In this document: piece by piece, positions 13,622 through 45,405 of the stretch | Position numbering within the stretch: position 1 is the first letter of the stretch | Layout: every line of letters begins with the position of its first letter | Assembly (NCBI RefSeq): GCF_003086295.3 | Contig: NC_092045.1 | Location: forward strand, 27,260,022-27,324,021 | DNA: 64,000 nt | Source of the DNA: Arachis hypogaea | Lineage: Eukaryota; Streptophyta; Magnoliopsida; Fabales; Fabaceae | Direction of reading: 5' to 3' | The notes under the pieces: generated by a model | What the model was told of the DNA's origin: nothing | Databases searched by the model: none | What the model saw: the letters and a program-made list of their open reading frames with translations, nothing else | Position numbers and translations under genes: made by a program

Positions 13622-15225
13622 GTTGAGTTTGGACAACTGACGGTTCATCTTGTTGCTTAGATTAGGTATTTTTCTTCAGAATTCTTAAGAATGAATTCTA
13701 GAGTTTCATGATGACTTGTTGAAGTCTGGCTGGCTGTGAAGCCACTATCTAATTTCATTGGACCGAGGTTTCAACTTCTCATCACAAGAGCTTGTTGATT
13801 TCTATCAATCTTGCTGTTGGAGCAGTTATCTGCTAAGGCTTGGCTGGCCATAGGCCATGTCTAGTGTTTTGGACCGAAGCTTTCTTTGAAAGCTTGGCTT
13901 GCTATGAAGCCATGTCTAATTCCTGGACCGGAGTCTTAGACTAGCATTGCATGATTCCTGGAATTCTCATTAAGAATTCTGATATCTTTATTTTCTTTTC
14001 CACTTAATTTTCGAAAAAACAAAAAAAAAATTACAAAATCATAAAATCCAAAAATATTTCTTGTTTGAGTCTAGAGTCTCATTTTAAGTTTAGTGTCAAT
14101 TGCATGTTTCTGCTCCTTTTGCATTCATGCATGTGTCTTCATTAATCTTCAAGTTGTTCTTGATGGTTTCATTGCTCTGATTTTTAAATTCTCTTGACTT
14201 GAGTGTTTTGTGTGTCTCATATGCATTCTCATTTTGTTAGTGTCAGTAGTATACAAACTGCTAAGTTTGGTGTCTTGCATGCATTGTTATTTGATTTTAG
14301 TTGCATTTTGATTATTCCTCTTTATTAAAAATCCAAAAATATTTTTAATTTGTGTCTTTTCAAGTCAATAATACAGAGAATTTGAAGATTCAGAACATAC
14401 TACAGAGGAATTACACAGAAAAAGCTGGGCGTTCAAAACGCCCAGTGAAGAAGGACAGACTGGCATTTAAACGCCAGCCAGGGTGCCTGGCTGGGCGTTT
14501 AACGCCCAAAAGGGTAGTAGTTTGGGCGTTAAACGCCAGAATGTGCACCATTCTGGGCGTTTAACGCCAGGATGGCACAAGAGGGAAGATTTTGTTTTCA
14601 AATCAAATTTTTTTAATTTTCAAAATCTTTACAAAATCAAATCTTTTTCAAAATCAATTTCTTTCTATTTTCAAAAATACTTGCTATCAATTAATGATTT
14701 GATTCAACATTTCAAGTATGTTGCCTTTTCTGTTGAGAAAGGTTTAATGTTTGAATCATATCTTTTCTTGATAGCCAAGTCATTAATTTTTAAAATCAAA
14801 TCTTTTTTAAAAAATTTTTCAAATCATATTTTCTCAATCACATCTTTTTAAAATCAATCATATCTTCTTAACCACATCTTTTTCAAAATAGTTTTCAATC
14901 AAATCTTTTTGATTTCTAATTTTAAAATCTTTTTCAAAAAATCACTTTACTTCTTTCTCAATCATGGTTTTCAAAAATCAATTAGTGTTTTTCAAAATGT
15001 TTTTTAAAATATTTTACTTAATTTTCGAAAATTTCTTCCCCTCTTCTCACATCCTTCTATTTATGGACTAACACTATTCCTTAATGAACAATTCGAACTC
15101 CATCTTTCTTGATAAGTTCGAATTTTCTACTTCTGCCTTCTATTTTTCTTTTCCTCTGACACCTCAAGGAATCTCTATACTGTGACATAGAGGATTCCAT
15201 ATTTTCTTGTTCTCTTCTCTTTCAT
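13622..15225 (+). other. Element B untranslated leader
   Basis: This 1.6-kb stretch has no credible ORF. It consists of imperfect local duplications (GCTTGGCTGGCCATAGGCCATG-like blocks at 13700-13940), a TAAGTTTGGTGT copy at 14264, the palindrome array at 14425-14570, and then AT-rich DNA with many CAAATCTTTTTC-type repeats (14590-15010). Element C has the same organisation at 41020-42630. Confidence 0.7.
14425..14570. repeat. Palindrome array 1 of element B, 31-bp period
   Basis: Five palindromic units related to CTGGCGTTTAAACGCCAG start at 14425, 14460, 14491, 14522 and 14553, giving spacings of 35, 31, 31 and 31 bp. Spacers of about 13-17 bp differ in sequence. Substitutions sit in single arms, but the GGCGTT/AACGCC arms are kept. 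Confidence 0.95.
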
Positions 15226-17564
15226 ATGAGCAGAAGCAAAGACAAAAGCATTCTTGTTGAGGCTGATCCTGAACCTGAAAGGACCTTGAAGCGAAAGCTA
15301 AGAGAAGCTAAGGCACAATTCTCTGTAGAGGACCTAACAGAAATCTTCCAAGAAGAAGAACCCATGGCAGCCGAAAACAACAACAATGCCAATAATGCAA
15401 GGAGGGTGCTGGGTGACTTTACTGCACCTACTCCCAACTTCTATGGGAGAAGCATCTCTATCCCTGCCATTGGAGCAAACAACTTTGAGCTTAAGCCTCA
15501 ATTAGTTTCTCTAATGCAACAGAATTGCAAGTTCCATGGACTTCCATTGGAAGATCCTCATCAGTTTTTAGCTGAATTCTTGCAAATCTGTGACACTGTC
15601 AAGACTAATGGGGTTGACCCTGAGGTCTACAGACTTATGCTATTCCTTTTTGCTGTAAGAGACAGAGCTAGGACATGGTTGGATTCACAACCTAAAGAAA
15701 GCCTGAACTCTTGGGAAAAGCTAGTCAATGCCTTCTTGGCAAAGTTCTTTCCACCTCAAAAATTGAGTAAGCTTAGAGTGGAAGTCCAAACCTTCAGACA
15801 GAAGGAAGGAGAATCCCTCTATGAAGCTTGGGAAAGATACAAACAATTGATCAGAAAGTGTCCCTCTGATATGCTTTCTGAATGAAGCATCATAGGTATC
15901 TTCTATGATGGTCTGTTTGAACTGTCCAAGATGTCTTTGGATAGCTCTGCTGGAGGATCTCTTCATCTGAAGAAGACGCCTACAGAAGCTCAAGAACTAA
16001 TTGAAATGGTTGCAAATAACCAATTCATGTACACTTCTGAAAGAAATCCCGTGAACAGTGGGACAAATCAGAAGAAAGGAGTTCTTGAGATTGATACTCT
16101 GAATGCCATATTGGCTCAGAACAAAATATTGACTCAGCAAGTCAATATGATTTCTCAAAGTCTGTCTGGAATGCAAAATGCACTAGGTAGTACTAAGGAA
16201 GCTTCATCTGAAGAAGAAGCTTATGATCCTGAGAACACTTCAATGGGAGAGGTGAATTACATGGGAGACCCCTATGGAAACACCTATAATCCTTCATGGA
16301 GAAATCATCCAAATCTCTCATAGAAGGATCAACAGAGACCTCAACAAGGTTTCAACAACAATAATGGTGAAGAAACAGGTTTAGCAATGGCAAGCCCTTT
16401 CCATCATCTTCTCAGCAACAGACAGAGAGTTCTAAGCAGAACACCTCTGACTTAGCAACCATGGTCTCTGATCTAATCAAAACCACTCAAAGTTTCATGA
16501 CTGAAACAAGGTCCTCCATTAGAAACTTGGAGGGACAAGTGGGTCAGCTGAGCAAGAAAATTACTGAACTCCCTCCTAATACTCTTCCAAGCAATACAGA
16601 AGAAAATCCAAAAGGAGAGTGCAAGGCCATCAACATGGCCGAATTTGGAGAGGAGGGAGAGGCAGTGAACGCCACTGAGGAAGACTTCAATGGACGTCCA
16701 CTGACCTCCAATGAGTTCCCCAAAGAGGAACCATGGGAATCTGAGGCTCAAAATGAGACCATAGAGATTCCATTGGACTTACTTCTGCCATTCATGAGCT
16801 CTGATGAGTATTCTTCCTCTGAAGAGGATGAGTATGTCACTGAAGAGCAAGTTGCTAAATACCTTGGAGCAATCATGAGGCTAAATGACAAGTTATTTGG
16901 AAATGAGACTTGGGAGGATGAATCCCCTTTGCTCACCAAAGAACTGGATGACTTGTCTAGGCAGAAATTACCTCAAAAGAGACAGGATCCTGGAAAGTTC
17001 TCAATACCTTGTACCATAGGCACCATGACCTTCAAGAAGGCCTTGTGTGACCTAGGGTCAAGTGTAAACCTCATGCCTCTCTCTGTAATGGAGAAGCTAG
17101 GGATCTTTGAGGTGCAAGCTGCAAAAATCTCACTAGAGATGGCAGACAACTCAAGAAAACAAGCTCATGGACTTGTAGAGGATGTTCTGGTAAAAGTTGA
17201 AGACCATTACATCCCTGCTGACTTCATAGTCCTAGAGACTGGGAAGTGCATGGATGAATCCATCATCCTTGGCAGACCCTTCCTAGCCACAGCAAAGGCT
17301 GTGATTGATGTGGACAGAGGAGAATTGATCATTCAAGTGAATGAAGAATCCTTTGTGTTTAAAGCTCAAGGATATCCCTCTGTCATCATGGAGAGGAAGC
17401 ATGAAGAGCTTCTCTCAAAACAGAGCCAAACAGAGCCCCCACAGTCAAACTCTAAGTTTGGTGTTGGGAGGCCACAACCAACTTCTAAGTTTGGTGTTGA
17501 ACCCCCACATTCAAACTCTAAGTTTGGTGTTGGGAGGTTCCAACATTGCTCTGAGCATCTGTGA
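15226..17564 (+). pseudogene. Element B gag-protease, interrupted
   Basis: The gag part (from ATG 15226) contains the retrotransposon gag domain (about residues 85-215: QFLAEFLQICDTVKTNGVDP, LFAVRDRARTWLDSQP, FRQKEGESLYEAWERYKQL). An in-frame TGA at 15883 replaces the Trp codon present in element C, a TAG follows at 16321, and a frameshift near 16370-16460 moves the rest to another frame (16461-17564). That last part holds an aspartic protease (FSIPCTIG, CDLGSSVNLMP, IILGRPFLATA) and ends with three SKFGV repeats. No RT follows, and the region after the stop already resembles the 3' part of Athila elements (GCGCTTGTTGGGAGGCAACC). The protein cannot be made as one piece. Confidence 0.85.
17447..17541 (+). 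repeat. Three tandem CTAAGTTTGGTGTT units in the protease ORF
   Basis: Three copies of (A/T)CTAAGTTTGGTGTTG spaced about 35-40 bases encode the SKFGV peptide repeats. Element C keeps the same three copies at about 44850-44940. The DNA motif matches the one abutting the 3' LTR. Confidence 0.85.
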
Positions 17565-17770
17565 GGCTCCATGAGAGCCCTCTGTCAAGCTACTGACATT
17601 AAAGAAGCGCTTGTTGGGAGGCAACCCAATGTTATATTTTATCTATTTTTCCTTTGTTATTTTATGTTTTCTGTAGGTTGATGATCATGAGAAGTCACAA
17701 AATCAATTGAAAAAGCAAAAACAGAATGAAAAACAGAAAGAAAAATAGCACACCCTGGAGGAAGAACCTA

Positions 17771-17942
17771 CTGGCGTTTAAACGCCAGTAAGGCTAGCAG
17801 ATGGGCGTTTAACGCCCAGTCTGGCACCATTCTGGGCGTTTAACGCCAGAAAGGGGCACCAGACTGGCGTTAAACGCCAGTAAAGGGCAAGAACTTGGCG
17901 TTAAACGCCAGAAAGGGGCACCAGCCCGGCGTTTAACGCTAG
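17771..17942. repeat. Palindrome array 2 of element B, 31-bp period
   Basis: Six units start at 17771, 17802, 17832, 17864, 17895 and 17926 (spacings 31, 30, 32, 31, 31). The first is a perfect CTGGCGTTTAAACGCCAG; others are TGGGCGTTTAACGCCCA or CTGGCGTTAAACGCCAG. The array lies between the protease ORF and the second ORF. Confidence 0.95.
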
Positions 17943-18371
17943 AATTGGCACAAAGAGCAATTTTACTCGCCACTTGGTGCAGGGATGACTTTTCCTTGAC
18001 ACCTCAGGATCTGTGGACCCCACAGGATCCCTACCTACCCCACCACTCTCTCTCTCTTCTTCACCCATTCACCAATCACCTCAACACCTCTTCCCCAAAA
18101 AAACCCTTCACCTATCAAATCCCATCTTTCTCTTCACCACTCACATCCATCCTTCATAAAACCCTACCTACCCCACCATTCAAATTCAAACCACTTTCCC
18201 TCCCAAACCCACCCATACATGACCGAACCATAACCCCCCCACTCCTATATAAACCCTTCTTCACTCCTTCATTTTCACACAACCTAAACACTACTTCTCC
18301 GCCCTTTGGCCGAACTACAAGGCCATCTCCATCTCCTCTATTTCTTCTTCTTCTACTCTCTTCTTTCTTCT

Positions 18372-18408
18372 TTTGCTCGAGGACAAGCAAACCTTTTAAG
18401 TTTGGTGT
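18372..18408 (+). promoter_or_regulatory. Hairpin plus TTTTAAGTTTGGTGT module, internal copy (element B)
   Basis: TTTGCTCG-AGGA-CAAGCAAA (18372-18391) can form an 8-bp stem with one mismatch, followed by TTTTAAGTTTGGTGT. The same module with different stem bases lies directly before the 3' LTR (20453-20490). This copy is about 40 bases before the start of the second ORF. Confidence 0.7.
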
Positions 18409-18445
18409 GGTAAAAGCATTGCTTTTTGTTTTTCCATAACCATTT

Positions 18446-19570
18446 ATGGCATCCAAGGCCGGAGAAACCTCTAGAAAGAGGAAAGAGAAGGCAAAAGCTT
18501 CCACCTCCGAGTCATGGGAGATGGAGAGATTCATCTCAAGGGTGCATCAAGACCACTTCTATGAAGTTGTGGCCTTGAAGAAGGTGATCCCCGAGGTCCC
18601 TTTCAAACTCAAAAAGAGTGAATATCTTGAGATCCGACATGAGATCCGAAGGAGAGGTTGGGAAGTTCTTACCAACCCCATTCAACAAGTCGGAATCTTA
18701 ATGGTTCAAGAGTTCTATGCCAATGCATGGATCACCAAGAACCATGATCAAAATGTGAACCCGGATCCAAAGAATTGGCTTACTATGGTTCGGGGTAAAT
18801 ACTTGGATTTTAGTCCGGAAAATGTAAGGTTGGCATTCAACTTGCCCATGATGCAAGGAGATGAACACCCTTACACTAGAAGGGTCAACTTTGATCAAAG
18901 GTTGGACCAAGTCCTCACAGTCATTTGTGAAGAGGGCGCCCAATGGAAGAGAGATTCAAGAGGAAAGCCGGTTCAATTGAGAAGGCATGACCTCAAACCC
19001 GTGGCTAGGGGATGGTTGGAGTTTATCCAACGCTCAATCATTCCCACTAGCAACCGGTCCGAAGTTACTATAGACCGGGCTATCATGATTCATAGCATCA
19101 TGATTAGAGAAGAAATAGAAGTTCATGAGGTGATATCCCAAGAACTTTATAAGGTGGCGGACAAGTCCTCTACCTTGGCAAGGTTAGCCTTTCCTCATCT
19201 CATTTGTCACCTCTGTTATTCAGTTGGAGTTGACATAGAGGGAGACATCCCCATTGATGAGGGCAAGCCCATCACTAAGAAGAGGATGGAGCAAACAAGA
19301 GACCCCTCTCATCATCAAATCCCTGAGATGCCTCAAGGGATGCACTTTCCTCCACAAAACTATTGGGAGCAACTAAACACCTCCCTAGGAGAATTGAGTT
19401 CCAACATGGGACAACTAAGGGTGGAACACCAAGAACATTCCATTCTCCTCCATGAAATTAGAGAAGATCAAAGAATCATGAGAGAGGAGCAACAAAGACA
19501 AGGAAGAGACATTGAGGAGCTCAAGCACTCCATAGGATCTTCAAGAGGAAGAACAAGCCGCCATCACTAA
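18446..19570 (+). CDS. Second ORF of element B, 'putative plant transposon protein', intact
   Basis: An uninterrupted 374-residue protein. The N-terminus is basic (SRKRKEKAKAS), suggesting nuclear import or nucleic acid binding. The core (about 30-270) has blocks such as FYEVVALKKVIPEVPF, FYANAWI and WLEFIQRSIIPTSNRSEVT, which I recognise as the 'putative plant transposon protein' domain found in the env position of Athila-type elements. The C-terminus (about 300-374) is a long Glu/Gln/Arg-rich helix, probably a coiled coil. There is no signal peptide or membrane segment, so it is not an envelope protein. It is the only complete ORF of the element. In element C the homologous ORF has lost most of the core. 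Function is not established. Confidence 0.8.
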   Translation: MASKAGETSRKRKEKAKASTSESWEMERFISRVHQDHFYEVVALKKVIPEVPFKLKKSEYLEIRHEIRRRGWEVLTNPIQQVGILMVQEFYANAWITKNHDQNVNPDPKNWLTMVRGKYLDFSPENVRLAFNLPMMQGDEHPYTRRVNFDQRLDQVLTVICEEGAQWKRDSRGKPVQLRRHDLKPVARGWLEFIQRSIIPTSNRSEVTIDRAIMIHSIMIREEIEVHEVISQELYKVADKSSTLARLAFPHLICHLCYSVGVDIEGDIPIDEGKPITKKRMEQTRDPSHHQIPEMPQGMHFPPQNYWEQLNTSLGELSSNMGQLRVEHQEHSILLHEIREDQRIMREEQQRQGRDIEELKHSIGSSRGRTSRHH

Positions 19571-20452
19571 GGTGGACCCGTTCTTTAATTTCCTTGTTCT
19601 TTATTTTTCTGTTTTCGAAAATTATGCTTATGTTTATCTATGTTTGTGTCTTGTGATCATTAGTGTCTTAGTGTCTATGCCTTAAAGTTATGAATATCCT
19701 ATGAATCCATCACCTTTCTTGAATGAAAAATGTTCTTAATTGAAAAAGAGAAGAATTGCATGAATTTTGAATTTTATAACAGTTTAATTATTTTGATGTG
19801 GTGGCAATATTTTTGTTTTCTGAATGTATGCTTAAACAGTGCATATGTCTTTTGAATTTGTGGTTCATGAATGTTGGCTCTTGAAAGAATGATGAAAAAG
19901 GAGACATGTTACTGAGGATCTGAAAAATCATAAAAATGATTCTTGAAGCAAGAAAAAGCAGTGAATACAAAAAAAATTTGAAAAAAGAGAGAAAGAAAAA
20001 AAAAAGAGAAAAAGAAAGAAAAAGAAAGAAAAAGAAAGAAATAAAGTTGTGATCCAAGGCAAAAAGAGTGTGCTTAAGAACCCTGGACACCTCTAATTGG
20101 GGACTCTAGCAAAGCTTAGTCACAATGTGAAAAGGTTCACCCAATTATGTGTCTGTGGCATGTATGTATCCGGTGGTAATACTGGAAGACAGAGTGCTTT
20201 GGGCCACGGCCAAGACTCAATAAGTAGTTGTGTTCAAGAATCATCATACTTAACTAGGAGAATCAATGACACTATCTAGATTCTGAGTTCCTAAAGAAGC
20301 CAATCATTCTGAATTTCAAAGGATAGAGTGAGATGCCAAAACTGTTCAGAGGCAAAAAGCTAAAAGCCCCGCTCATCTAATTAATACTGATCTTCATAGA
20401 TGTTTTTGGAATTCATTGTATATTCTCTTCTTTTTATCTTATTTGATTTTCA
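19571..20452 (+). other. Element B 3' untranslated region
   Basis: No gene is seen. It contains a purine-rich A/G tract (19970-20045). The stretch from about 19830 onward has a close match in element C (about 46600-47380). Confidence 0.6.
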
Positions 20453-20490
20453 GTTGCTTGAGGACAAGCAACAATTTAAGTTTGGTGTTG
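20453..20490 (+). other. Hairpin plus polypurine-tract region at the 3' LTR (element B)
   Basis: GTTGCTTG-AGGA-CAAGCAAC (20453-20472) forms a perfect 8-bp stem with an AGGA loop. ATTTAAGTTTGGTGTTG (20474-20490) then runs right up to the LTR at 20491, where plus-strand priming is expected. Confidence 0.75.
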
Positions 20491-22072
20491 TGATGAGCGG
20501 ATAATTTGTACGCTTTTTGGCATTGTTTTTAGTATGTTTTTAGTATGATCTAGTTAGTTTTTAGTATATTTTTATTAGTTTTTAGGTAAAATTCACTTTT
20601 CTGGACTTTACTAGGAGTTTGTATGTTTTTCTGTGATTTCAGGTATTTTCTGGCTGAAATTGAGGGACCTGAGCAAAAATCTTATTCAGAGACTAAAAAG
20701 GACTGCATATGCTGTTGGATTCTGACCTCCCTGCACTCGAAGTGGATTTTCTGGAGCTACAGAAGCCCAATTGGCGCGCTCTCAACGGCGTTGGAAAGTA
20801 GACATCCTGGGCTTTCCAGCAATATATGATAATCCATACTTTGCCCAAGATTTGATGGCCCAAACCGGCGTTCAAAATCACCTTCAGAATTCCCAGCGTT
20901 AAACGCCGGAACTGGCACAAGGATGGGAGTTAAACGCCCAAACTGGCACCAAAGCTGGCGTTTAACTCCAAGAAGAGTCTCTACACGAAAATGCTTCAAT
21001 GCTCAGCCCAAGCACACACCAAGTGGGCCCGGAAGTGGATTTTTATGTCATTTACTCATCTCTGTAAACCCTAGGCTACTAGTTCTATATATATAGGACC
21101 TTTTACTATTGTATTATAATCTTCTGATCTTTGGAGTCTTTTGATCTTTAGATCTTTTGATCACTTTGGGAGGCTGGCCATTTGGCCATGCCTAGACCTT
21201 GTTCTTATGTATTTTCAACGGTGGAGTTTCTACACACCATAGATTAAGGTGTGGAGCTCTGCTGTACCTCGAGTATTAATGCAATTACTATTGTTCTTCT
21301 ATTCAATTCCGCTTGTTCTTGTTCTAAGATATCACTTGTTCTTCAACTTGATGAATGTGATGATCCGTGACACTCATCATCATTCTCACCTATGAACGTG
21401 TGCCTGACAACCACCTCCGTTCTACCTTAGATTGGGTGGATATCTCTTGGATTCTTTAACCGAAATCTTCGTGGTATAAGCTAGAACTGATGGCGGCATT
21501 CAAGAGAATCCGGAAGGTCTAAACCTTGTCTGTGGTATTCTGAGTAGGATTCAATGATTGAATGACTGTGACGAGCTTCAAACTCCTGAGGGCGGGGCGT
21601 TAGTGACAGACGCAAAAGAATCACTGGATTCTATTCCGGCCTGATTGAGAACCGACAGATGGATAGCCGTGCCGTGACAGGGTGCGTTGAACATTTCCAC
21701 TGAGAGGATGGGAGGTAGCCACTGACAACGGTGAAACCCTTGCATACAGCTTGCCATGGAAAGGAGTAAGAAGGATTGGATGAAGACAGTAGGAAAGCAG
21801 AGAGACGGAAGGAACACAACATCTCCATACGCTTATCTGAAATTCCCACCAATGAATTGCATAAGTATCTCTATCTTTATCTTTATGTTTTATTCATCAT
21901 TCATAACCATTTGAGTTTGCCTGACTAAGATTTACAAGGTGACCATAGCTTGCTTCATACCAACAATCTCTGTGGGATCGACCCTTACTCGCGTAAGGTT
22001 TATTACTTGGACGACCCAGTACACTTGCTGGTTAGTTGTGCGAAGTTGTAGTGATCACAATTTCGTCCACCA
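20491..22072 (+). repeat. Element B 3' LTR
   Basis: This 1582-bp copy differs from the 5' LTR by scattered single substitutions and a one-base indel visible by eye. It ends GTCCACCA, followed by the target duplication GATAG. Confidence 0.95.
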
Positions 22073-22077
22073 GATAG

Positions 22078-22948
22078 GTGTTGTCTTAAGTTTCTGAAAG
22101 GCTGCTTCGCATTCTGAGTTTCAAGTGAAGTGCTGTTCTTTCTTTAGTATGTTGAAGAAATGTTGTGAGTGGTTGGATATTGCTGGTAAAAATCGAGATA
22201 ATGCGGCCAGCCTACCATTTAATGTTGTACCTTTTACTGTTTGTTGGCTTCTCATATTTATTATTGCCTTGCATTTCTCGGGGTTTGCTTCGATGCCCCT
22301 TGATGTGAGCATGAAGCCGAGAAATTTGCCGCCCATGACTCCAAAGGCACACTTCTCAGGGTTTAGCCTCATATTATGTTGTCTTATTTGCATGAAGATT
22401 TCTTCGAGGTCGAATCCATGATCCTGGTTTTGTTTTGTTTTTACAACCATGTCGTCAACGTAGACCTCGAGATTTCTTCCTATTTGTTTGTTGAAAACTT
22501 TGTCCATTAGCCGCTGATAAATAGCACCTGCATTCTTTAAACCAAATGGCATAACCTTATAACAATAATTTCCTAATTCAGTAATGAAAGTTGTTTTGTC
22601 CTCATCTTTAGGATGCATTAGGATTTGATTATACCCTGAATATGCGTCTAAAAATCTTAAAAGGTTATATCCAGAGGCATTATCTACGAGTTTGTCAATG
22701 CAGGGAAGGGGATAGGCATCTTTTGGGCATGCCTTATTTAAATTAGTAAAATCGACACACATTCGCCATTTACCTGAGACTTTTCTTGCCATAACCACAT
22801 TGGACAACCATGTTGTAAAACTCATCTCCTTTATGAATCCTGCCTGAAGTAGTTTCCGAGTTTCCTCCAAGCATGCCGACCTTTTTGTGTCTCCCATGTT
22901 TCTTTTCTTTTGTGATATAGGTCGGACCTTTGGATCAATGCCAGGCAT
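22078..22948 (-). pseudogene. Element A reverse transcriptase, truncated
   Basis: The ORF 22948-22121 encodes a Ty3/gypsy RT: WRMCVDFTNLNKACPKDAYPL, FLDAYSGYNQI, MPFGLKNAGA and the catalytic YVDD, followed by the FLGFMLTSRGIEANP block. A TGA at 22121-22123 interrupts the next conserved segment, which continues to 22078 (ECEAAFQKL) before element B. On the other side of B the sequence is already the antisense ORF, and since B is flanked by a clean GATAG duplication, RNase H and integrase were lost before B arrived. The frame is the same as that of the protease upstream, consistent with an original gag-pol polyprotein. Confidence 0.85.
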
Positions 22949-23278
22949 GTCCGTTAGGGTCCATGCAAAGAGGTCGACATTTTTTCAAAGAATGCTGGGT
23001 ATGCTTTCTTTGTTACCTGCAAGTAGAGAGCAGCTTATGTAAGTGAAATGGTTGTCATTATTGTCTAGTGTTACCTTTTCAAGATCGTCTGTTGGTGCTG
23101 GTCTGTCTCAAAAGTCTTCTCTAGGGTTGAGGTTGGCAGCGCTTGAAATGTTTGATGCGTTGAATGTGTTTCCTGGAAGCTCGGTTCTCAGTGTATTTTC
23201 TGCTCTAATTTTAAGGCTTTCGTTGTAACAATGCCGAGCTTCCCTTTGGTCAGAATGTATGGTGGCTACCTGATCGTC

Positions 23279-25390: not shown

Positions 25391-26881
25391 TGACGAACAA
25401 TTCTTGCATGGTCTAGAATTTTACAAATAATTTCTCGTTAAAAGTATAGCTTCTAAACCAACAAGAATCCTTTCATACAAAAGATTGGTTGTCACAAGTA
25501 ACAAACCTCTAATAAAATTGATAACTGAAGTATTTAAACCTCGGGTCGTCTCTCAAGAAATTGCAGGGAAGTGTTCTTATAATTGGTTATGTAAAGATAT
25601 ATTTTAGGATTTTTGAATAAGGAAACAAGAAAAGTAAATTACAAAGGAAATCAAATGACCAGAAAAGCTCTTGGCAAGGTTTGGTGGTCAAGGATCTCTA
25701 TCCTTATCACTAACCACAACATGAGAATTGACAAGGATCAATCCCATTAAATCATCCTCTAACTAATAGTAAAGGAAAGTTAAATGAGCTATATCAATCC
25801 AAGTCCATAAGTCATAGCTCTCCACTAATTCAATTAGTGAGAACTAGAGTTAATGGCTCCCAATCATCAATTCCTTGGACATTAGTGACTCAAGAGTTCC
25901 TAAGTTACCATCCCAAGCCAAGAACATAAAAGTCTAATTTGAGATCCTCCCAAGAATTTTATCAAACACTTGAAAGGCACAACACAAAAGCATAGAAAAG
26001 CAATAAGAGATAATAAAATCCAAACAACCAATTGAAAGCATCAATAACATAAATTGAAGAAAGCAATCATAAATATGAAATATCTTAAATTGCATTAAAT
26101 AGAAAATCAAATCTAAAATGGAGTTCATAAACCAAATTAGGGAAATAAACAAATCAACAAGAGAAATAAATAAACCAAAATACTAGAACAATTAAAGTAG
26201 AAGAAACCTAAATTGAAGCAAGGTAGAATTCTGAAATTGGAAAGAAATAAACCTAAAACTAAGAGAAATCCTAAATCCTCAAACCTAGAGAGATGAGAGA
26301 GCCTCTGTCTCTAGAAACTACATCTAAAACCTAAAATTGTGAATAATGAGAAGTGATTTGATGAATGAATGATTCCCTCACTTTGAAGCCTCTAATCTGC
26401 ATTTTCTGGGCCAAAAATGGGTCATTCACGCGTATGCGTCACCCAACAGCCAGGAAACTATGGCAAATTATATATCTTTGCAAAGCCCCGAATGTTATAT
26501 TTCCAACGCAACTAGAACCGCCTCATTTGAACCTTTGTAGCTCAAGTTATGATCAATTTAGTTCAAAGAGGTCAGGGCTGACAGCTCAACGATTCCTTCA
26601 ATTTCTTGTATTCCTTCCACTTTTGCATGCTTCCTTTCCATCCTCTAAGCTATTCCTGCCCTATAAACCCTGAAGACACTTAACAAACATATCACGGCAT
26701 CGAATGGTGATAAGAGAGGATTAAACATAGCAAAGTTAAGGCCAAAGAAGCACGTTTTCAATCATAGCACAAAATTAGGAAGGAAAGTGTAAAACATGTG
26801 GATTCTGTGAATAAATGTGAGAATAGTGGATAAAATCTACTCAATTAAGCACAAGATGTATCACGAATTAGTGATGCATCA
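25391..26881 (-). repeat. Element E 3' LTR (left copy)
   Basis: A 1491-bp copy. Compared with the right copy it lacks most of the CGCGTACGCG-rich block, keeping only TCACGCGTATGCGTCACCC near 26430. Confidence 0.9.
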
Positions 26882-31332: not shown

Positions 31333-32952
31333 TGACGAACAGATTCTTGTGTGGTCTAGAATTTTACAAATAAGTTCTCGTTGAAAGTATAGCTTCTAAA
31401 CCAAAAGAATCTTTTCATACAAAAGATTGGTTGTCACAAGTAACAAACCCCTAATAAAATTGATAACCGAATAATTTAAATCTCGGGTCGTCTCTCAAGA
31501 AATTGCAGGGAAGTGTTCTTATAATTGGTTACGTAAAGATATATTTTGGGGTTTTTGAATAAGGAAACAAGAAAAGTAACTTGCAAAGGAAATCAAATGA
31601 CCAGAAAAGCTCTTGGCAAGGTTTGGTGGTCAAGGATCTCTATCCTTATCACTAACCACAACATGAGAATTGACAAGGATCAATCCCATTAAATCATCCT
31701 CTAACTAATAGTAAAGAAAAGTTAAATGAGCTATATCAATCCAAGTCCATAAGTCATAGCTCTCCACTAATTCAATTAGTGAGAACTAGAGTTAATGGCT
31801 CCCAATCATCAATTCCTTGGACATTAGTGACTCAAGAGTTCCTAAGTTACCATCCCAAGCCAAGAACATAAAAGTCTAATTTGAGATCCTCCCAAGCATT
31901 TTATCAAACACTTCGAAAGCACAACACAAAAACATAGAAAAGCAATAAGAGATAATAAAATCCAAACAACCAATTGAAAGCATCAATAACATAAATTGAA
32001 GAAAGCAATCATAAATATGAAATACCTCAAATTGCATGAAATAGAAAATCAAATCTAACATGGAGTTCATAAACCAAATTAGGGAAATAAACAAATCAAC
32101 AAGAGAAATAAATAAACCAAAATACTAGAATAATCAAAGTAGAAGAAACCTAAATTAAAGCAAGGTAGAATTCTGAAATTGGGAAGAAATAAACCTAAAA
32201 CTAAGAGAAATCCTAAATCCTAAAACTAAGAGAAATCCTAAATCCTAAAACCTAGAGAGAGGAGAGAGCCTCTCTCTCTAGAAGCTAAATCTAAAACCTA
32301 AAATTGTGAACAATGAGAAGTGATTTGATGAATGAATGATTCTCCCACTCTGTAGCCTCTAATATGTGTTTTCTGGGCCAAAAACTGGGTCAAAAACAGC
32401 CTAGAAATCGCCCCTAACACGTGGCTCTGTCACGTATACGCATCGCCCACGCGTACGCGTCGCTTGTCTGCCGCACTATCCACGTGTACGCGTCATTCAT
32501 GCGTACGCATCGCCCAACAGCCATACAACTATAGTAAATTATATATCGTTGCAAATCCCCAGATGTTAGCTTTCCAAGGCAACTGGAACCGCCTCATTTG
32601 GACCTCTGTAGCTCAAGTTATAATCGATTTAGTGCAAAGAGGTCAGGGCTGACAGCTCAGCGATTCCTTCAATTTCTTGTATTCCTTCCACTTTTGCATG
32701 CTTCCTTTCCATCCTCTAAGCCATTCTTGCCCTATGAACCCTGAAGGCACTTAACAAATATATCACAGCATCGAATGGTGATAAGAGAGGATTAAACATA
32801 GCAAATTTAAGGCCAAAGAAGCACGTTTTCAATCATAACACAAAATTAGGAAAGAAAGTGTAAAACATGCAGATTCTGTGAATAAATATGAAAATAGTGG
32901 ATAAAATCCACTCAATTAAACACAAGATGTACCACGAATTAGTGGTGCATCA
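31333..32952 (-). repeat. Element E 5' LTR (right copy)
   Basis: A 1620-bp copy with a GC-rich segment at about 32410-32515 made of CGCGTACGCG-like units. It also has a small local tandem duplication (CTAAGAGAAATCCTAAATCC at about 32200-32240) absent from the left copy. Confidence 0.9.
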
Positions 32953-37128: not shown

Positions 37129-38782
37129 TGATGAGCGGATAATTTATATGCTTTTTGACATTGTTTTTAGGTAGTTATTAGTATGATTTAGTCACTTTTT
37201 AGTATATTTTTATTAGTTTTTCTGAAAAAATTATATTTCTGGACTTTACTATGAGTTTGTGTATTTTTCTGTAATTTCAGGTATTTTCTGGCTGAAATTG
37301 AAGGACCTGAGCAAAAATCTAATTCAGAGGCTGAAAAAGGACTGCTGATGCTGTTGGATTCTGACCTCCCTGCACTCGAAATGGAATTTTTGGAGCTACA
37401 AAACCAAAATGGCATGCTCTCAATTGCTTTGGAAAGTAGATATCCAGGGCTTTCCAAAAATATATAATAGTCTATACTTTGCTCAAGTTTTGACGACACA
37501 AATTGGCGTTCAAACGCCAATTTCCTGCCCTATTCTGGCGTTAAACGCCAGAAACAAGTTACAAGCTAGAGTTAAATGCCCAAAACAGGCTGCAAACTGG
37601 CGTTTAACTCCAAGAGAAGTCTCTACACATGAAAGCTTCAATGCTCAGTCCAAGCACACACTAAGTGGGCCTAGAAGTGAATTTCTGCATCATTTACTTA
37701 TTTTTGTAAACCCTAATAACTAGTCTAGTATAAATAGTACCTTTTACTATTGTATTGGACATTCTGGGATCTTTGATTAGTTTTATGCTATCTTAGACAT
37801 TGGGGGCTGCCCTCACGGCCATGCCTGGACCATCATCACTTATGTATTTTCAACGGTAGAATTTCTATACACCATAGATTAAGTGTGGAACTCTACTGTT
37901 CCTCAAGTATTAATGCAATTACTACTGTTTTCTATTCAATTCATGCTTATTCTTGTTCTAAGATATCCATTCGCACACAAAAACATGATGAATGTGATGA
38001 TTATGTGACGCTCATCATCATTCTCAACCTATGAACGCGTGCCTGACAAACACTCCCGTTCTACATGCAAACTAGCTTGAATGCATATCTCTTAGCCTTC
38101 TGGTTCACGATCAGAGTCTCGTGGTATAAGCTAGAATCAATTGGCAGCATTCTTGAGATCCAGAAAGTTTAAACCTTGTCTGTCGTATTCCGAGTAGGAT
38201 CTGGGATGGGATGACTGTGACGAGCTTCAAACTCGTAAGTGTTGGGCGTGGTGACAGACACAAAAGGATCAATGGATCCTATTCCAACATGACTGAGAAC
38301 TGACAGATGATTAGCCATCCGGTGAAAGCGCATTTGGACCATTTTCACTGAGAGGACGGACGGTAGCCATTGACAACGGTGATCACCCAACATACAGCTT
38401 GCCATAGAAAGGAGTATGAAGGATTGGATGAAGGCAGTAGGAAAGCAGAAATTCAGAAGGAATAATGTATCTCCATACGCTTATCTGAAATCCCCACCAA
38501 TGAATTACATAAGTATCTCTATCTTTATTTTATGTTTTATTTATCTTTTAATTATCAAAACTCTATAACCATTTGAATCCACCTGACTGGGATTTACAAG
38601 ATGAGCATAGCTTGCTTCAAGCCGACAATCTATGTGGGATCGACCCTTACTCACGTAAAGTTTATTACTTGGACGACCCAGTGCACTTGTTGGTTAGTTG
38701 TGCGAAGTTGTGAAAAAGAGTTGAGATTATAATTGTGCGTACCAAGTTGTTGGCACCATTGAGATCACAATTTCATGCACCA
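37129..38782 (+). mobile_element. Solo LTR (element B/C family) in the PMD gene
   Basis: 1654 bp from TGATGAGCGG to ATGCACCA with perfect target duplication ATGAC (37124-37128 and 38783-38787). No internal sequence remains, as expected after LTR-LTR recombination. It has TATAAATAG at about 37729 and four palindrome units starting at 37503, 37535, 37565 and 37597. Confidence 0.95.
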
Positions 38783-39246
38783 ATGACACAGATCAATCAC
38801 AGTGGGGCATTTATCCAAATGAAAATCAAGTCTTCCAACCTCAAGACAATAGGCCATTTGAAATGGTGACTGGCCGTATGTCTTTAGATTCTAGACTTAA
38901 CATGCCGTCAATGTCTGGGCATTCTGGGGATCCATATGGGTGGGTCGTTTCCCCTTTGACTCAGGAAGGAGTGGGCTCAATCAAGGCATTGAATTTGTTG
39001 ATCCTGCAGTTCCTAGTGGGAGCATTCCTTGTTTTGATCTTAACACGGTTGCAACAACAATTCATAAAGAGGTTGAGGCGGAGGAGGAAGAGCTATCATC
39101 AGATGCCTTCATACGCACCCTCGTCAATGCACCCCGGGATAGGGTGGATGATAGTGACGACAACGATGCCGATGATGACAATGGCAACACTGATGGTGAC
39201 GACGATGATGATGATGATGGGGCAGTTGAGAATGCATGTACACCTG

Positions 39247-40993
39247 TGATGAGCGGATAATTTATACGCTTTTTGGCATTGTTTTTACATAGTTTTTAGT
39301 AGGATCTAGCTACTTTTTAGTATATTTTATTAGTTTTTAAGCAAAATTCACATCTCTGGACTTTACTATGAGTTTGTGTATTTTTCTGTGATTTCAGGTA
39401 TTTTCTGGCTGAAATTGAGGGACCTGAGCAAAAATCTGATTCAGAGGCTGAAAAAGGACTGCTGATGCTGTTGGATTCTGACCTCCCTGCACTCGAAATA
39501 GAATTTTTGGAGCTACAGAAACCAAAATGGTGCGCTCTTAATTGCGATGGAAAGTAGACATCTAGGGCTTTCCGGAAATATATAATAATTCATACTTTGC
39601 CCGAGTTTAGATGACTCAAACTGGCATTCAACGCCAGCTTTCTGCCCTATTCTGGCGTTAAACGCCAGAAACAAGTTGCAAGCTAGAGTCAAACGCCAGA
39701 AACAAGTTACAAACTGGCATTTAACTCCAAGGAAGACCTCTACACGTGAAAGCTTCAATGCTCAGCCCAAGCACACACCAAGTGGGCCCGAAAGTGGATT
39801 TTTGCATCATTTACTTATTTCTGTAAACCCTAGTAACTAGTTTAGTATAAATAGAACTTTTTACTATTGTATTAGACATCATCTTTGGACGTTTAGTCCT
39901 TAGACCAAGGTCCTGGTTATTATGGTTCCCTCTCTGGGGCCGAAGCCAATGAACACCATTATCACTTATGTATTTTTAACGGTGGAGTTTCTACACACCA
40001 TAGATTAAGGTGTGGAGCTCTGCTGTTCCTCGAGTATTAATGCAATTACTACTATTTTCTATTCAAGTCATGATTATTCATGTTCTAAGATATCCATTCG
40101 CATACAAGAACATGATGAATGTGATTATTATATGACACTCATCACCATTCTCACTTATGAATGCGTGATTGACAACCACTTCCGTTCTACATGAAAACAA
40201 GCTTGAATGCATATCTCTTGGATTTATAATCAATGATTCACATTGACTCCCCTCTGACAATGGGGCATCTGAATCCGAGATTAGAATCTTCGTGGTATAG
40301 GCTAGAATTCATTGGCAGCATTCTTGAGATCCGGAAGTCTAAACCTTGTCTGTGGTATTCCGAGTAGGATCTGGGATGGGATGACTATCATGAGCTTCAA
40401 GCTCGCGACTGTAGGGCATAGTGACAGACGCAAAAGGATAGTAAATCCTATTCCTACATGATCGAGAACCAACAGCTGATTAGCCATATAGAAATTTTCA
40501 TCCGAGACGAGAAATCTGACAGTTGATTAGTCGTACAGAAACCGTAGAGGACCATTTTTACTGAGAGGACGGGAAGTAGCCATTGACAACGGTGATACCC
40601 AACATACATCTTGCCATAGAAAGGAGTATGAAGGATTGGATGAAGGCAATAGGAAAGCAGAGATTCAGAAGGAACAACGCATCTCCATACGCTTATCTGA
40701 AATTTCCACCAATGAATTGCATAAGTATCTCTATCTTTATTTTATGTTTATTTATCTTTTAATTATCAAAACTCTATAACCATTTGAATCCGCCTGACTG
40801 AGATTTACAAGATGACCATAGCTTGCTTCAAGCCGACAATCTCCGTGGGATCGACCCTTACTCACGAAAGGTTTATTACTTGGACGACCCAGTGCACTTG
40901 CTGGTTAGTTGTGCGAAGTTGTGAAAAAGAGTTGAGATTACAATTGTGCATACCAAGTTGCTGGCGCCATTGAGATCACAATTTCGTGCATCA
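39247..40993 (+). repeat. Element C 5' LTR
   Basis: It contains TATAAATAG (about 39845) and four palindrome units starting at 39621, 39652, 39683 and 39714, exactly 31 bp apart. Confidence 0.9.
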
Positions 40994-41019
40994 AGTTTTT
41001 GGCGCCGTTGCCGGGGATT

Positions 41020-42631
41020 GTTCGAGTTTGGACAACTGACGGCTCATTTTGTTGCTCAGATTAGGTAATTTTCTTCTTGTTTTAACCATTATTTTATTTT
41101 CAAAAAAAGTTTTCAAAAATCTTTCAAAATTTTTCTTCTTTTTTGTTTTTCTAAAAATAATTTTCGAAGAAATCCAAAAATTTTATAAAATCATAAAATC
41201 AAAAAAATTTTGTGTTTCTTGTTTGAGTCTAGAGTCAATTTTTTAGTTTGGTGTTTTTCTCAAAAATTTTCGAAAACTCATGCATGGTGTTCTTCATGAT
41301 CTTCAAGTTGTTCTTGGTAAGTCTTCTTATTTGATCTTCATATTTTCTTGTTGTGTCTTTTGTTATTTTTCATATGCATTTTTGAATTCATAGTGTCTAA
41401 GCATTAAAAATTTCTAAGTTTGGTGTCTTACATGTTTTTCTATTCTTGAAAATTTTTCAAACATAAATTCTTGATGTTCATCATGATCTTCAAAGTGTTC
41501 TTGGTGTTCATCTTGACATTCATAGTGTTCTTGCATGCATCACTTGTTTTAATCCAAAATTTTTATGTGTTGAGTCATTTTGTAGTTTTTCTCTTTCCTC
41601 ATAAAATTCAAAAAAAATATCTTTTCCTTATTTTACTCATAATTTTTGAAATCTTTGGGTTGACTTAGTCAAAATTTTTTTAAATAAGTTGTTTCTTGTT
41701 AGTCAAGTCAAGATTTCAATTTCAAAAATTTATCTTTTCAAAATCTTTTTCAAAAATCAAATCTTTTTCAATTTTATTTCATGTTTTTCAAAAAATTTTT
41801 AAAAATTGATTTTCAAAATCTTTTTCTTATCTTTATTTCATAATTTTCAAAATTATTACTAACAATTAATGTTTTGATTCAAAAATTTCAAAGTTTGTTA
41901 CTTTCTTGTTAAGAAAGATTCAAACTTTAAATTTTAGAATCATATCTTTTAGTTTCTTGTTAGTCAAGTCATCAACTTCAATTTTTAAAATCAAATCTTT
42001 TTTAAAATTTCTTTTTCAAATATTTTTCAAAATAAAGTTCAATCATATCTTTTCAATCATATCCTTTTTTTCAAATCAAATCTTTTTAAATAAAATCTTT
42101 TTCAATCAAATCTTTTTCAATCATATCTTTTTCAAAAATTTGATTTCAAAAATCTTTTCTAACTTCATATCTTTTCAAAATTTATTTTCAAATCTTTTTC
42201 AACTAACTAATTGATTTTTTGTTTGTTTTACTATTTCTTATCTTTTCAAAACTACCTAACTATTTTTCTCTCTCTAATTTTTGAAAATTCCTCACCCTTT
42301 TTCAAAATTCTTTTTAATTAACTAATTATTTTAAATTTTAATTTTAATTTTATTTCTTCTCCTAATTTTTGAATTCTAACTATATTTTAAAATAAAAACA
42401 AAAATATCTTCCTTTTCTTCTTAATTATTTTCGAAATTATCTCCCTCTCATCTCTTTCTATTTATTTTATTTATTTACTAACGCTTCTCTTCTCAAAATT
42501 CGAACCCCCACGTTCTCTGTGTTCGAAGTTTTTTTTCTTCTTCCTTCATTCTTATTCTTCTATTCACAAAAAGGAATCTCTATACTGTGACATAGAGGAT
42601 TCCTCTTCTTTTCTGTTCTTTTCTTTTTCAT
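41020..42631 (+). other. Element C untranslated leader
   Basis: Very AT-rich, with many imperfect TCAAATCTTTTTCAA-type repeats and a TCTAAGTTTGGTGT copy at 41411. Unlike element B, no palindrome array is seen before gag. Confidence 0.7.
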
Positions 42632-44967
42632 ATGAGCAGGAACAAGGAAAGAGGTATTCTTGTTGAAGCTGATCCTGAACCTGAAAGGACCTTGAAGAGG
42701 AAGCTAAGAGCAACTAAAGTACAGTACTCTGAAGAGGACCTAACTGAAATTTTTGAACAGGAAATGGATATGGCAGCCGAACCCAACAACAACAATGCAA
42801 GGAAGGTGCTTGGTGACTTTACTGCACCAAATTCCAACTTCCATGGAAGAAGCATCTCAATCCCTGCCATTGGAGCAAACAACTTTGAGCAAAAGCCTCA
42901 ATTAGTTTCTCTGATGCAACAGAATTGCAAGTTTCATAGACTTTCATCAGAAGATCCTTTTCAGTTCTTAACTGAATTCTTGCAGATCTGTGATACTGTT
43001 AAGACCAATGGAGTTGATCCCGAGGTCTATAAGCTTATGCTTTTCCCTTTTGCTCTAAGAGACAGAGCTAGAACATGGTTAGACTATCAGCCTAGAGATA
43101 GCCTGAACTCTTGGGATAAGCTGGTCACGGCTTTCTTAGCCAAGTTCTTTCCTCCTCAAAAGCTAAGCAAGCTTAGAGTGGATGTTCAAACCTTCAGGCA
43201 GAAATAAGGTGAATCCCTCTATGAAGCTTGGGAAAGATACAAGCAACTAACCAAAAAGTATCCTTCTGACATGCTTTCAGAATGGACCATCCTAGATATA
43301 TTCTATGATGGTCTGTTTGAATTGTCTAAGATGTCATTGGACCATTCTGCAGGTGGATCTATTCACCTGAAGAAAACACCTGCAGAAGCTCAGGAACTCA
43401 TTGAAATGGTTGCAAATAACCAATTCATGTACACCTCTAAAAGGAATCCTGTGAGTAATGGAACGCCTCAGAGGAAGGGAGTTCTTGAAGTTGATGCTCT
43501 AAATGCCATATTGGCTCAGAACAAAATGTTGACTCAGCAAGTCAATATGATTTCTTAGAGTCTGAATAGTTTGCAAAATGCATCCAACAGTACTAAAGAA
43601 GCATCTTCTGAAGAAGAAGCTTATGATCCTGAGAACCCTGCAATGGCAGAGGTGAATTATATGGGTGAAGCCTATGGAAACACCTATAATCCCTCATGGA
43701 GAAATCATCCAAATTTCTTATGGAAGGATCAACAAAAGCCTTAACAAGGCTTTAATAATGGTGGAAGAAACAGGTTTAGCAATAGCAAGCCTTTTTCATT
43801 ATCCTCTCAGCAACAGACAGAGAATTCTGAGCAAAGCCCCTCTAGCTTAGCAAACATAGTCTCTGATCTATCTAAGGCCACTCTAAGTTTCATGAATGAA
43901 ACAAGGTCATCCATTAGAAATTTGGAGGCACAAGTGGGCCAACTGAGTAAAAGAGTCACTGAAACTCCTCCTAGTACTCTCCCAAGCAATACAGAAGGGA
44001 ATCCAAAATGAGAGTTCAAGGCCATAACCTTACTTGGCGTGGCCGAAACTAGAGAGGAGGAGGATGACATGAATTCCAATGAGGAAGACCTCATGGGACG
44101 TCCTCTGGACAAAAAGGAGTTCCCATTTGAGGAACCAAAGGAATCTGAGACTCATATAGAGACCATAGAGATTCCATTGAACCTACTTCTGCCATTCATG
44201 AGCTCTGATGACTATTCCTCCTCTGAAGAGGATGAAGATATTACTGAAGAGTAAGTTGCTAAGTACCTTGGAGCAATCATGAAGTTGAATGCCAAGTTAT
44301 TTGGTAATGAGACCTGGGTGAATGAACCCCCTTGCTCACTAATGAACTGAATGACTTGGTTAGGTAGACGTTACCTCAAAAGAAACAAGATCCTGGTAAA
44401 TTCTTAATTCTTTGTACCATAGGCACCATGACCTTTGAGAAGGTTCTGTGTGACCTGGGGTTAGGCATAAACTTAATGCCACTCTCTGTAATAGAGAAAC
44501 TGGAAATCTTTGAGGTACAGGCCACCAAATTCTCATTAGAGATGGCAGACAAATCCATGAAAAAGGCTTATGGACAGGTAGATGACGTGCTAGTAAAGGT
44601 CAAAGGCCTTTACATCCCTGCTAATTTCATAATCCTAGACACTGGGAAGGATGAGGATGAATCCATCATCCTTGGAAGACCCTTCCTAGCCACAGCAAAA
44701 GCTGTGATTGATGTGGACAGAGGAGAGTTGATCCTTTAATTGAATGAGGATTACCTTGTGTTTAAAACTCAAGGATCTCCCTCTGTAACCATGGAGAGGA
44801 AGCAAGAAAAGCTTCTCTCAATGCAGAGTCAAACAAAGCCCCCACAGTCAAACTCTAAGTTTGGTGTTGGGAAGCCACAATCAAACTCTAAGTTTGGTGT
44901 TAAACCCCCACATTCAAATTCTAAGTTTGGTGTTGGGAGGTTTCAACAATGCTCTGCACATCTGTGA
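42632..44967 (+). pseudogene. Element C gag-protease remnant
   Basis: The gag domain is recognisable from ATG 42632 (QFLTEFLQICDTVKTNGVDP, FALRDRARTWLDYQP) with a TAA at 43204-43206. The frame resumes at 43271-43558 and then breaks repeatedly. The protease part (44428-44739) has CDLGLGINLMP in place of the DLGSS active-site form seen in element B, and IILGRPFLATA. After a stop the 3' end (44740-44967) encodes three SKFGV repeats. The gag and protease segments align with element B in order and spacing. Confidence 0.85.
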
Positions 44968-45170
44968 AGCTCCATGAGAGCTCACTGTCAAGCTATTGAC
45001 ATTAAAGAAGCGCTTATTGGGAGGCAACCCAATTTTATTTATCTATGTTATTTTCTTTTTTTTAGGTTGATGATCATGTGGAGTCAAAAAAATAAACTGC
45101 AAAAATTAAAGAAAAATCAGAAATAGCATTAAAAACAGCACACCCTAGAGGAGAAACTTATTGGCGTTTA

Positions 45171-45405
45171 AACGCCAGTAAGGGTAGCAGAATGGGCGTT
45201 TAACGCCCAGTCTGGCACCATTCTGGGCGTTAAACGCCAGAAAGAAGCACCAGACTGGCGTTAAACGCCAGAAAGAAGCAACAAACTGGTGTTAAACGCC
45301 AGAAACAGGTTGCAGCTTGGCATTTAACGCCAGGAAAGGAATAAAAGCTGGCGTTTAATGCCAGAAACAAGCAGTAGTCTAGCGTTAAACGCCAGGATTG
45401 CATAC
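45171..45405. repeat. Palindrome array of element C, eight units, 31-bp period
   Basis: Units start at 45171, 45203, 45233, 45265, 45296, 45327, 45358 and 45389 (spacings 32, 30, 32, 31, 31, 31, 31). Several have one changed base, such as CTGGTGTTAAACGCCAG or CTGGCGTTTAATGCCAG. Compared with the array of six at the same place in element B, two units differ in number while the phase is kept. Confidence 0.95.

Follow-up and report, generated by a model that had tools for sequence, protein, structure and literature searches.

Two LTR retrotransposons and their palindrome arrays

The window, a 64,000-nucleotide stretch of the peanut (Arachis hypogaea) genome, contains two LTR retrotransposons (elements A and B) and a solo LTR (37129..38783), and the features described here lie on the forward strand. 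The 5′ LTR of element A (12015..13595) shares 98.4% identity with its 3′ LTR (approximately 20491..22072) by self-BLAST, and the end sequences show GATAG on both sides (12010-12014 and 22073-22077) as a 5-bp target site duplication. A probable primer binding site (TGGCGCCGTTGCCGGGGA, 13602..13619) was read from the sequence by eye. The internal region encodes Gag (15226..15885; PF03732, E 2.4e-16, with a stop codon at its end), a protease-region ORF (16461..17564) with a weak aspartyl protease match under the curated cut-off (PF09668, E 0.0017), and ORF2 (18446..19570), a 374-amino-acid protein matching PF20167 (Transposase_32); it holds no further large ORF. Element B is bounded by LTRs at 39245..40994 and 47416..49179. 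No reverse transcriptase (RT), RNase H or integrase was detected in the four ORFs of element A and three ORFs of element B that were scanned, which bears out the earlier suggestion that the family lacks RT, and RT matches were also absent from the ORFs scanned in loci L020-L022. With LTRs and Gag present, and RT, RNase H and integrase absent from the ORFs scanned, element A can be classed as a non-autonomous, gag-only LTR element. TR-GAG elements are non-autonomous LTR elements that encode Gag and lack RT; unlike these, the peanut elements add a second conserved ORF and palindrome arrays.

The arrays are built from palindromic units, for which the half-sites are CTGGCGTT / AACGCCAG or TGGGCGTT / AACGCCCA. 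Element A has a leader array of five units (14425..14570; dyad-centre spacings of 33.5, 31.5, 31 and 31 from 14435) and a mid array of six units (17771..17942; 30.5, then four spacings of 31 from 17779.5), in which the half-sites CTGGCGTT / AACGCCAG flank a 1-2 bp centre. The mid array of element B (45161..45395) comprises eight units, possibly followed by a decayed ninth, with a spacing of 31.5 and then six of 31 from 45169.5; the array reported earlier from 45171 is thus real, with its start shifted to 45161. A unit scan found no palindrome array in the leader of element B. The arrays in the LTR U3 regions are shorter and degenerate, with dyad-centre spacings of 31 or 31.5 and one of 28. They occur in the element A 5′ LTR (12388..12495; four degenerate units spaced 28, 31 and 31) and 3′ LTR (20893-20972; three units found), the solo LTR (37503-37614), and the element B 5′ LTR (39621-39731) and 3′ LTR (47792-47902).

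Arrays are located upstream of TATA boxes both in the LTR and before ORF2. The LTR TATA box of element A (CTATATATATAGG, 12608..12620) is approximately 113 bp downstream of the last U3 unit, and an internal TATA box (CTATATAAACC) follows the mid arrays of element A (18245..18255, upstream of ORF2) and element B (45693..45703). The internal box was found within two substitutions in 21 of 22 rows and as the exact sequence CTATATAAA in 14 of 22; these rows represent 21 distinct mid regions, since L022 has a duplicated anchor and is counted twice, as it also is in the ORF2 set. These TATA boxes may act as working promoters.

Abundance, spacing and tandem structure of the arrays

The palindrome 18-mer occurs in 19,921 exact copies in the 2.56-Gb peanut genome, and an anchor from the element mid-region in 16,615. 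Arrays were present in all 40 mid-element regions that we selected by the downstream anchor, independently of the palindrome, from 100 listed anchor places, all on contig 1. We found 330 units in 20 loci plus the window, versus none in a reversed-sequence control, and arrays ranged from 4 to 10 units. Outside peanut, a genome contig scan returned five bacterial loci, which are presumably unrelated, while two scans of viral contigs gave no matches and three palindrome strings did not occur in the literature searched.

Across the 40 arrays, 225 of 235 array-internal steps measured 29.5-32 bp, after exclusion of 23 steps longer than 100 bp, most of them running from an array to spurious hits within a coding repeat of 33 bp. 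Spacing tabulated over many copies is therefore not broadly distributed, and the 30-32 bp periodicity of the preliminary description holds, except for the ten remaining steps of 36.5-39 bp. These occur once per array in ten arrays, at the same slot in nine, and the longer step at this slot has been kept in several related families. The constant feature is the edge-to-edge spacer, which is 14 bp in 189 of 235 cases and 13 bp in 31, such that 17-bp units give a step of 31 and 18-bp units a step of 32; in L020, the step is 32.0 six times.

Tandem Repeats Finder (TRF) assigned periods of 31 and 62 to the two mid arrays, with the leader and LTR arrays absent from its listing, and blocks have been duplicated within the arrays of L057 and L066. 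Spacers had been described as variable in sequence and fixed in length. Their length is indeed mostly 14 bp; their sequences, however, are related, with a paralogous identity of 0.444 versus 0.294 for shuffled spacers. With spacers that are related as tandem repeats of 31/62 bp and one slot off-length, the figure of 31 bp mostly reflects how long the duplicated unit is. Spacer length differed in 13 of 53 adjacent pairs, versus 27.8 expected from the indel:substitution ratio of the LTRs (nominal P 0.0014, which is optimistic because pair counts share ancestry), which gives weak support for additional selection on spacer length. Support for the proposed selection for a 31-bp phase is weak, the period itself being explained by unit duplication. 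The proposal that all centres face one side of the helix is weakened in that a helix of 10.5 bp per turn lets neighbours at 31 or 32 bp drift, and one slot falls out of phase.

Constraint on the half-sites and independent decay of the arms

There is clear selection on the palindromes in the mid arrays. Shared non-deamination changes were found in none of 96 arm columns versus 16 of 69 spacer columns, with nine of the 40 arrays omitted because they fell outside the main type. The central base and the spacers vary, in contrast to the two half-sites, where non-deamination change is held back. Within the tandem repeats, arm identity was 0.83 versus 0.444 for spacers, although half-site similarity had been used to define the units. 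The identities, the spacer-length pair test, the covariation test and the off-length slot analysis used a set of 232 units located 100-420 bp before the anchor end, in which many terminal units are cut; a second set of 276 units keeps them.

The two arms decay independently. At the inner six positions of the 276 units, we observed 133 one-sided changes and two complementary double changes, versus 3.81 doubles expected under independent change; 73 changes broke even wobble pairing and 62 kept it. The 232-unit set gave no complementary doubles (2.67 expected) and none of 80 arm columns, and the inner positions showed no covariation. The two outermost positions (GG/GGG types) seemed to covary in the 232 units, but without significance on 47 representatives; genome-wide, the outer-pair double occurred 73 times, close to the 47.7 predicted if the positions change independently. 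Double substitutions that preserve the palindrome are thus not in excess, and of the possibility that the arms mutate independently at the neutral rate, independence was confirmed and neutrality contradicted by the arm and spacer columns. Constrained arms that decay independently point to sequence-specific recognition of DNA and away from RNA hairpins. Even without a link to a protein, the mid arrays offer a case in which selection on a non-coding palindrome can be cleanly separated from post-insertion decay.

ORF2 and the possible reader of the arrays

Purifying selection acts on ORF2. The protein has a basic N-terminus, and structure modelling predicts a VANC21-like domain (residues 30-269) and a long C-terminal helix (304-364). 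Foldseek returned no significant hit for either model, and a PDB sequence search with the PF20167 profile gave only weak matches, all to the C-terminal part (best E 0.14), with no VANC21 chain among the 24 PDB sequence matches. The matches listed for 34 PF20167 members, with 25 of the 34 families displayed, did not include DUF1985, and a genome search for DUF1985 gave no match, with its controls silent too. An RT-bearing PF20167 element in the genome has the order RT, RNase H, then integrase, and is therefore gypsy-type. A distant autonomous PF20167 family has no palindrome array, so arrays do not accompany all PF20167 ORFs.

We tentatively favour, at somewhat less than even confidence, the reading that the palindromes are binding arrays for a dimeric protein, multiplied by duplication and maintained by selection, with ORF2 as the likeliest, VANC-like, reader. 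A dimeric platform had been proposed before, and the conserved half-sites, variable centre and spacers, and position upstream of TATA boxes are consistent with it. Each unit would present a pair of half-sites, 8 bp each, separated by a free centre that is mostly 1-2 bp long; the 31-bp unit would have been multiplied via tandem duplication, and selection would have retained the arrays ahead of both the LTR promoter and the internal ORF2 promoter. The hosts would form a large superfamily of RT-less peanut LTR retrotransposons with a gypsy-type RT-bearing relative. By analogy with VANC proteins, the dimeric reader would most likely be the element's own PF20167 product, which could bind its own family's repeated sites and keep the promoters unsilenced or activate them.

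A host transcription factor reading TGGCGTT-N-AACGCCA could instead use the arrays as enhancers, as proposed for the palindromic repeated motifs (RMs) in the LTRs of Sireviruses, with ORF2 doing something unrelated. We consider this a realistic alternative, though one that we doubt: it accounts for the constrained half-sites, the position of arrays upstream of two TATA boxes and the layout shared with these RMs, which precede the TATA box within the LTR and also the ORF at the envelope position (PMC2829016), yet it leaves unexplained why an RT-less element has a conserved, predicted VANC21-like ORF2. The TRF periods, the range of 4 to 10 units and the blocks duplicated in L057 and L066 could also arise if slippage had spread the 31-bp repeat and template switching at quasi-palindromes, rather than selection, had maintained or perfected its symmetry. 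This is improbable, because arms and spacers diverge so differently and one-sided arm changes are left unpaired (133 versus two complementary doubles).

Serial RNA hairpins for genomic RNA dimerisation or packaging, also suggested previously, are very unlikely. A stem of 6-8 bp can form in every unit, and the leader and mid arrays would lie within the expected transcript; we reject the hairpins nonetheless, as compensation is absent, wobble is not favoured, and no Rfam family covers the arrays. Least probable of all is that the 31-bp period itself, as three helical turns, was selected: the stability of spacer length would fit such a platform, while the off-length slot kept in related families and the uniform 32.0-bp steps of L020 speak against it.

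A broader form of the preferred reading, in which PF20167 proteins of gypsy-type elements are VANC-fold, sequence-specific DNA-binding anti-silencing factors and the 31-bp palindrome arrays their peanut target, is possible, if doubtful. To our knowledge, VANC-type anti-silencing is known only from Mu-like DNA transposons. If the broader form is correct, this system would also serve retrotransposons and explain the puzzling 3′ extra ORF of Athila-type elements, and element-encoded, sequence-specific escape from silencing would be common to DNA transposons and LTR retrotransposons. It would also help to explain how an RT-less element reached its anchor copy number. A conserved candidate target array together with a VANC21-like predicted fold makes for a concrete and cheap binding test.

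As in VANDAL elements (PMC5735166, PMC10398659), short motifs recur within tandemly repeated non-coding DNA of the element itself, as targets in VANDAL and as candidates here, and the element encodes a protein, of which here only the predicted domain resembles VANC21. VANDALs, however, are Mu-like DNA transposons, the VANC21 motif YAGTATTAY is non-palindromic, and VANC proteins have DUF1985/DUF287, whereas the peanut protein has PF20167, with no sequence similarity detected. Sireviruses likewise bear one short palindrome in many copies per element, with one cluster ahead of the LTR TATA box and another ahead of a 3′ extra gene (PMC2829016). They are copia elements, whereas the RT-bearing peanut relative is gypsy and the window ORFs scanned have no RT; most Sirevirus RMs have a CGG-CCG core, whereas the peanut core is GGCG-CGCC and lacks that signature; and the peanut units are tandem at 31 bp. 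A TATA-like box precedes the peanut ORF2, while the Sirevirus internal promoter could not be conclusively identified in that source.

Retand elements also have tandem repeats particular to each family in their internal non-coding DNA, next to an extra ORF suspected of DNA binding; these arrays sit between pol and the 3′ LTR and, in contrast to those of peanut, are nowhere in the portion available presented as conserved palindromes that precede promoters (PMC11963269). The PF20167 protein, encoded 3′ of gag(-pol), recalls the additional 3′ ORFs (PF20167/PF03078) of Athila-type elements, and the putative Athila affiliation of the window elements is based on PF20167, which is related to Athila ORF1 (PMC11728184). 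The available sections of that article treat the role of such extra 3′ ORFs in plant gypsy elements as unknown and contain no target site or VANC link, and the excerpt of a 2026 paper states that effects of Athila-encoded ORFs on the epigenetic landscape remain to be investigated (PMC12844716). A sunflower PF20167 protein carries a nuclear localisation signal, according to the same sections (PMC11728184).

Palindrome arrays and the elements that carry them

The window covers positions 27260022-27324021 of C10; since the best named relatives of its Gag are Arachis hypogaea proteins, the DNA belongs to peanut or a close relative. The arrays are a real and abundant DNA feature. A unit detector blind to spacing, run on the window and on 20 loci of 9-10 kb picked by an exact 18-mer, recovered 330 palindrome units, and none in the reversed-sequence control. 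The exact 18-mer occurs 19,921 times in the 2.557-Gb genome and its non-complemented reversal not once. A mid-region anchor, which lies 3' of the mid array (between the protease-region ORF and ORF2) and selects regions without reference to the palindrome, has 16,615 exact copies (8,264 + 8,351); an array is present in all 40 regions sampled from 100 listed anchor places, all on contig 1. Each unit consists of two 8-bp half-sites, CTGGCGTT + AACGCCAG or TGGGCGTT + AACGCCCA, flanking a short centre of 1 bp (226 of 276 units), 2 bp (48) or 3 bp (2), and the 1-bp centres take all four bases.

Element A (5' LTR 12015-13595, 3' LTR 20491-22072, pair identity 98.4%) is flanked on both sides by the 5-bp target site duplication GATAG. 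It encodes Gag (PF03732) and an intact ORF2 (374 aa, PF20167), along with an ORF that weakly matches protease. Element B (39245-49179) has Gag and a weak protease match, with ORF2 reduced to a short 63-aa piece without a Pfam match; a solo LTR occupies 37129-38783. A leader array (14425-14570) was found in element A and none by the scan in the leader of B. The preliminary description took the family to lack reverse transcriptase; a scan of four A ORFs, three B ORFs and seven more from the relatives L020-L022 detected neither RT nor RNase H nor integrase.

Several other features were observed in the window. A 33-bp in-frame tandem repeat closes the protease-region ORF (17439-17537 and 44841-44938) and contains AAGTTTGGTGT, a second dispersed motif that matches 10 times where 0.06 would be expected, always on the + strand (14263-14273; three in 17454-17530; 18398-18408; 20478-20488; 41416-41426; three in 44857-44933). 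One element A copy stops 2 bp short of the 3' LTR, and the motif may serve as a repeated signal on the PPT side or in the leader. A marginal Rfam snoR71 match (41 bits, cut-off 40) lies antisense within gag (15769-15876, - strand). Outside the described elements, 25391-26881 and 31333-32952 are mutually 91-93% identical.

Origin of the 31-bp step and selection on the half-sites

The preliminary description had reported starts 30-32 bp apart and spacers variable in sequence but fixed in length, and had taken this to suggest selection for a phased platform. Of the 235 steps inside arrays, 225 fall within 29.5-32 bp (173 of them at exactly 31 bp) and ten measure 36.5-39 bp. Measured from edge to edge, spacers span 14 bp in 189/235 and 13 bp in 31/235, and sequence autocorrelation peaks at lags 31 (0.608) and 62 (0.546) against a mean of 0.259. 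The spacing held for most steps; ten arrays have a 36.5-39 bp step, which takes a common slot in nine of them. Variability of the spacers held only in degree, since paralogous spacers are related (identity 0.444 versus 0.294 shuffled). Because TRF also reports the mid arrays as tandem repeats with periods of 31 and 62 bp, duplication accounts for the period; the phase is mostly inherited from it, and a step of 31 bp alone is no sign of selection. Spacer lengths nonetheless changed less than predicted: adjacent pairs were unequal in 13/53 (11 arrays) versus about 28 expected from 397 mismatches at the LTR indel:substitution ratio of 0.066-0.078 (nominal P 0.0014, shared ancestry ignored). Against selection on length stand the 36.5-39 bp steps and one array in which every step is 32.0. 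The long spacers (19-22 bp), one per array in L037, L039, L045, L048, L049, L054, L056, L061, L065 and L066, follow the fourth unit except in L065, whose array start is lost, and the slot occurs in at least two array lineages.

Selection is shown instead in the half-sites of the mid arrays. The 31 main-type arrays among the 40 were aligned together with flanking DNA, and a column was scored if a non-deamination variant was common to at least two copies. Such columns numbered 0/96 in the arms, 16/69 in spacers, 39/159 upstream, 31/88 downstream and 6/7 in centres (Fisher P 3e-7 to 4e-12, uncorrected for shared ancestry). Deamination letters had frequencies of 0.034 in arms, 0.038 in spacers, 0.032 upstream and 0.016 downstream, so arms decay after insertion as elsewhere, while the copy-making lineage fixed no non-deamination arm changes. 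A narrower unit set, excluding many terminal units, gave 0/80 in arms versus 14/55, 39/159 and 34/119, and the contrast held by base (G/C columns 0/50 versus 22/142; A/T columns 0/30 versus 65/191). The contrast was weaker in 28 LTRs, where variant columns were 9/51 in units versus 18/28 in spacers; these units were no different from the LTR flanks (17/100 and 24/100), and the LTR TATA was variable in 7/13 columns.

DNA sites, RNA hairpins and candidate promoters

The same palindromes had been proposed to serve either as sites for a dimeric DNA-binding protein or as serial RNA hairpins. Among 276 units scored at the six inner positions, one side had changed in 133 pairs and both sides in four. 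Only two of the four doubles were complementary, versus 3.81 expected if the sides were independent; both replace G-C by A-T at a CpG. Changes retained wobble pairing in 62 pairs and broke pairing in 73. A smaller set of 232 units gave no doubles versus 2.67 expected (wobble 45, broken 62). For the outer pair genome-wide, 19,921 copies were unchanged, 1,950 changed on one side (964 + 986) and 73 on both, against about 48 expected under independence, an excess that could come from copies of mixed age. The sole hints of symmetry-keeping change were the GG/GGG outer type, whose covariation at the outer two positions was not significant among 47 representatives, and a few LTR units turned symmetric via transitions, as judged by eye. 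Compensating changes being no commoner than chance, RNA hairpins are disfavoured: independent mutation of the arms, named beforehand as a refuting result, counts against a pairing role. Protein sites are left standing by this result, since each half would be read for its own sequence. We favour a dimeric DNA-binding protein as the candidate reader of the arrays, for which ORF2 would be a testable candidate.

The arrays lie upstream of two candidate promoters, one at the LTR TATA and one at a box before ORF2. Simple patterns served to locate both landmarks: the gap from the last U3 unit to the TATA box was 112-115 bp in 10/28 LTRs, an earlier unit was taken in 3/28, and 15/28 had no TATA pattern in the searched range. 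Downstream of the mid array, 21/22 rows (21 distinct regions) contain a box within two substitutions of CTATATAAACC, and 14/22 an exact CTATATAAA. Two substitutions are lenient in AT-rich DNA, so the better evidence is the steady distance of 183-203 bp between the box and the start of ORF2 in rows where the two could be located.

Precedents and distant PF20167 elements

Sireviruses likewise carry palindromic repeated motifs 5' of the TATA in the LTR and again 5' of the envelope gene, a 3' extra gene; the authors of that study reported support for an internal promoter, yet no conclusive identification (PMC2829016). VANC proteins bind short motifs within tandem repeats of the non-coding DNA of their own VANDAL elements and cause methylation to be lost (PMC5735166, PMC10398659); VANC-DNA structure results were called unpublished in a September 2025 meeting report (PMC12859917). 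A 3' extra ORF of Athila has been noted to carry PF20167 and a nuclear signal (PMC11728184), and another paper leaves it as a question whether Athila ORFs influence methylation (PMC12844716). Among the matches listed from open-licence literature, none described the peanut arrays or a PF20167-VANC link.

P0158, a distant PF20167 protein (43% identity to ORF2 over 68%), sits downstream of a pol of the gypsy type (RT, RNase H, integrase). Its element shows no exact GCGTT-N(1-2)-AACGC site in 20 kb, and a single site occurs in one of six family loci (~4.3 kb each). The array is therefore a feature of the peanut superfamily, not of all PF20167 elements, and other families may use different sites or none. 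In L076-L077, an autonomous element of the gypsy type that carries PF20167 downstream of pol, the repeated end region contains a 24-bp tandem repeat (2.9 copies) with a different sequence. Pairs of GCGTTNAACGCC spaced 14-20 bp were also seen in bacteria, namely Prauserella (L001, L003, L004), a Binatia MAG (L002) and a Patulibacter MAG (L005); these are presumably unrelated to the plant element and are possibly operators.
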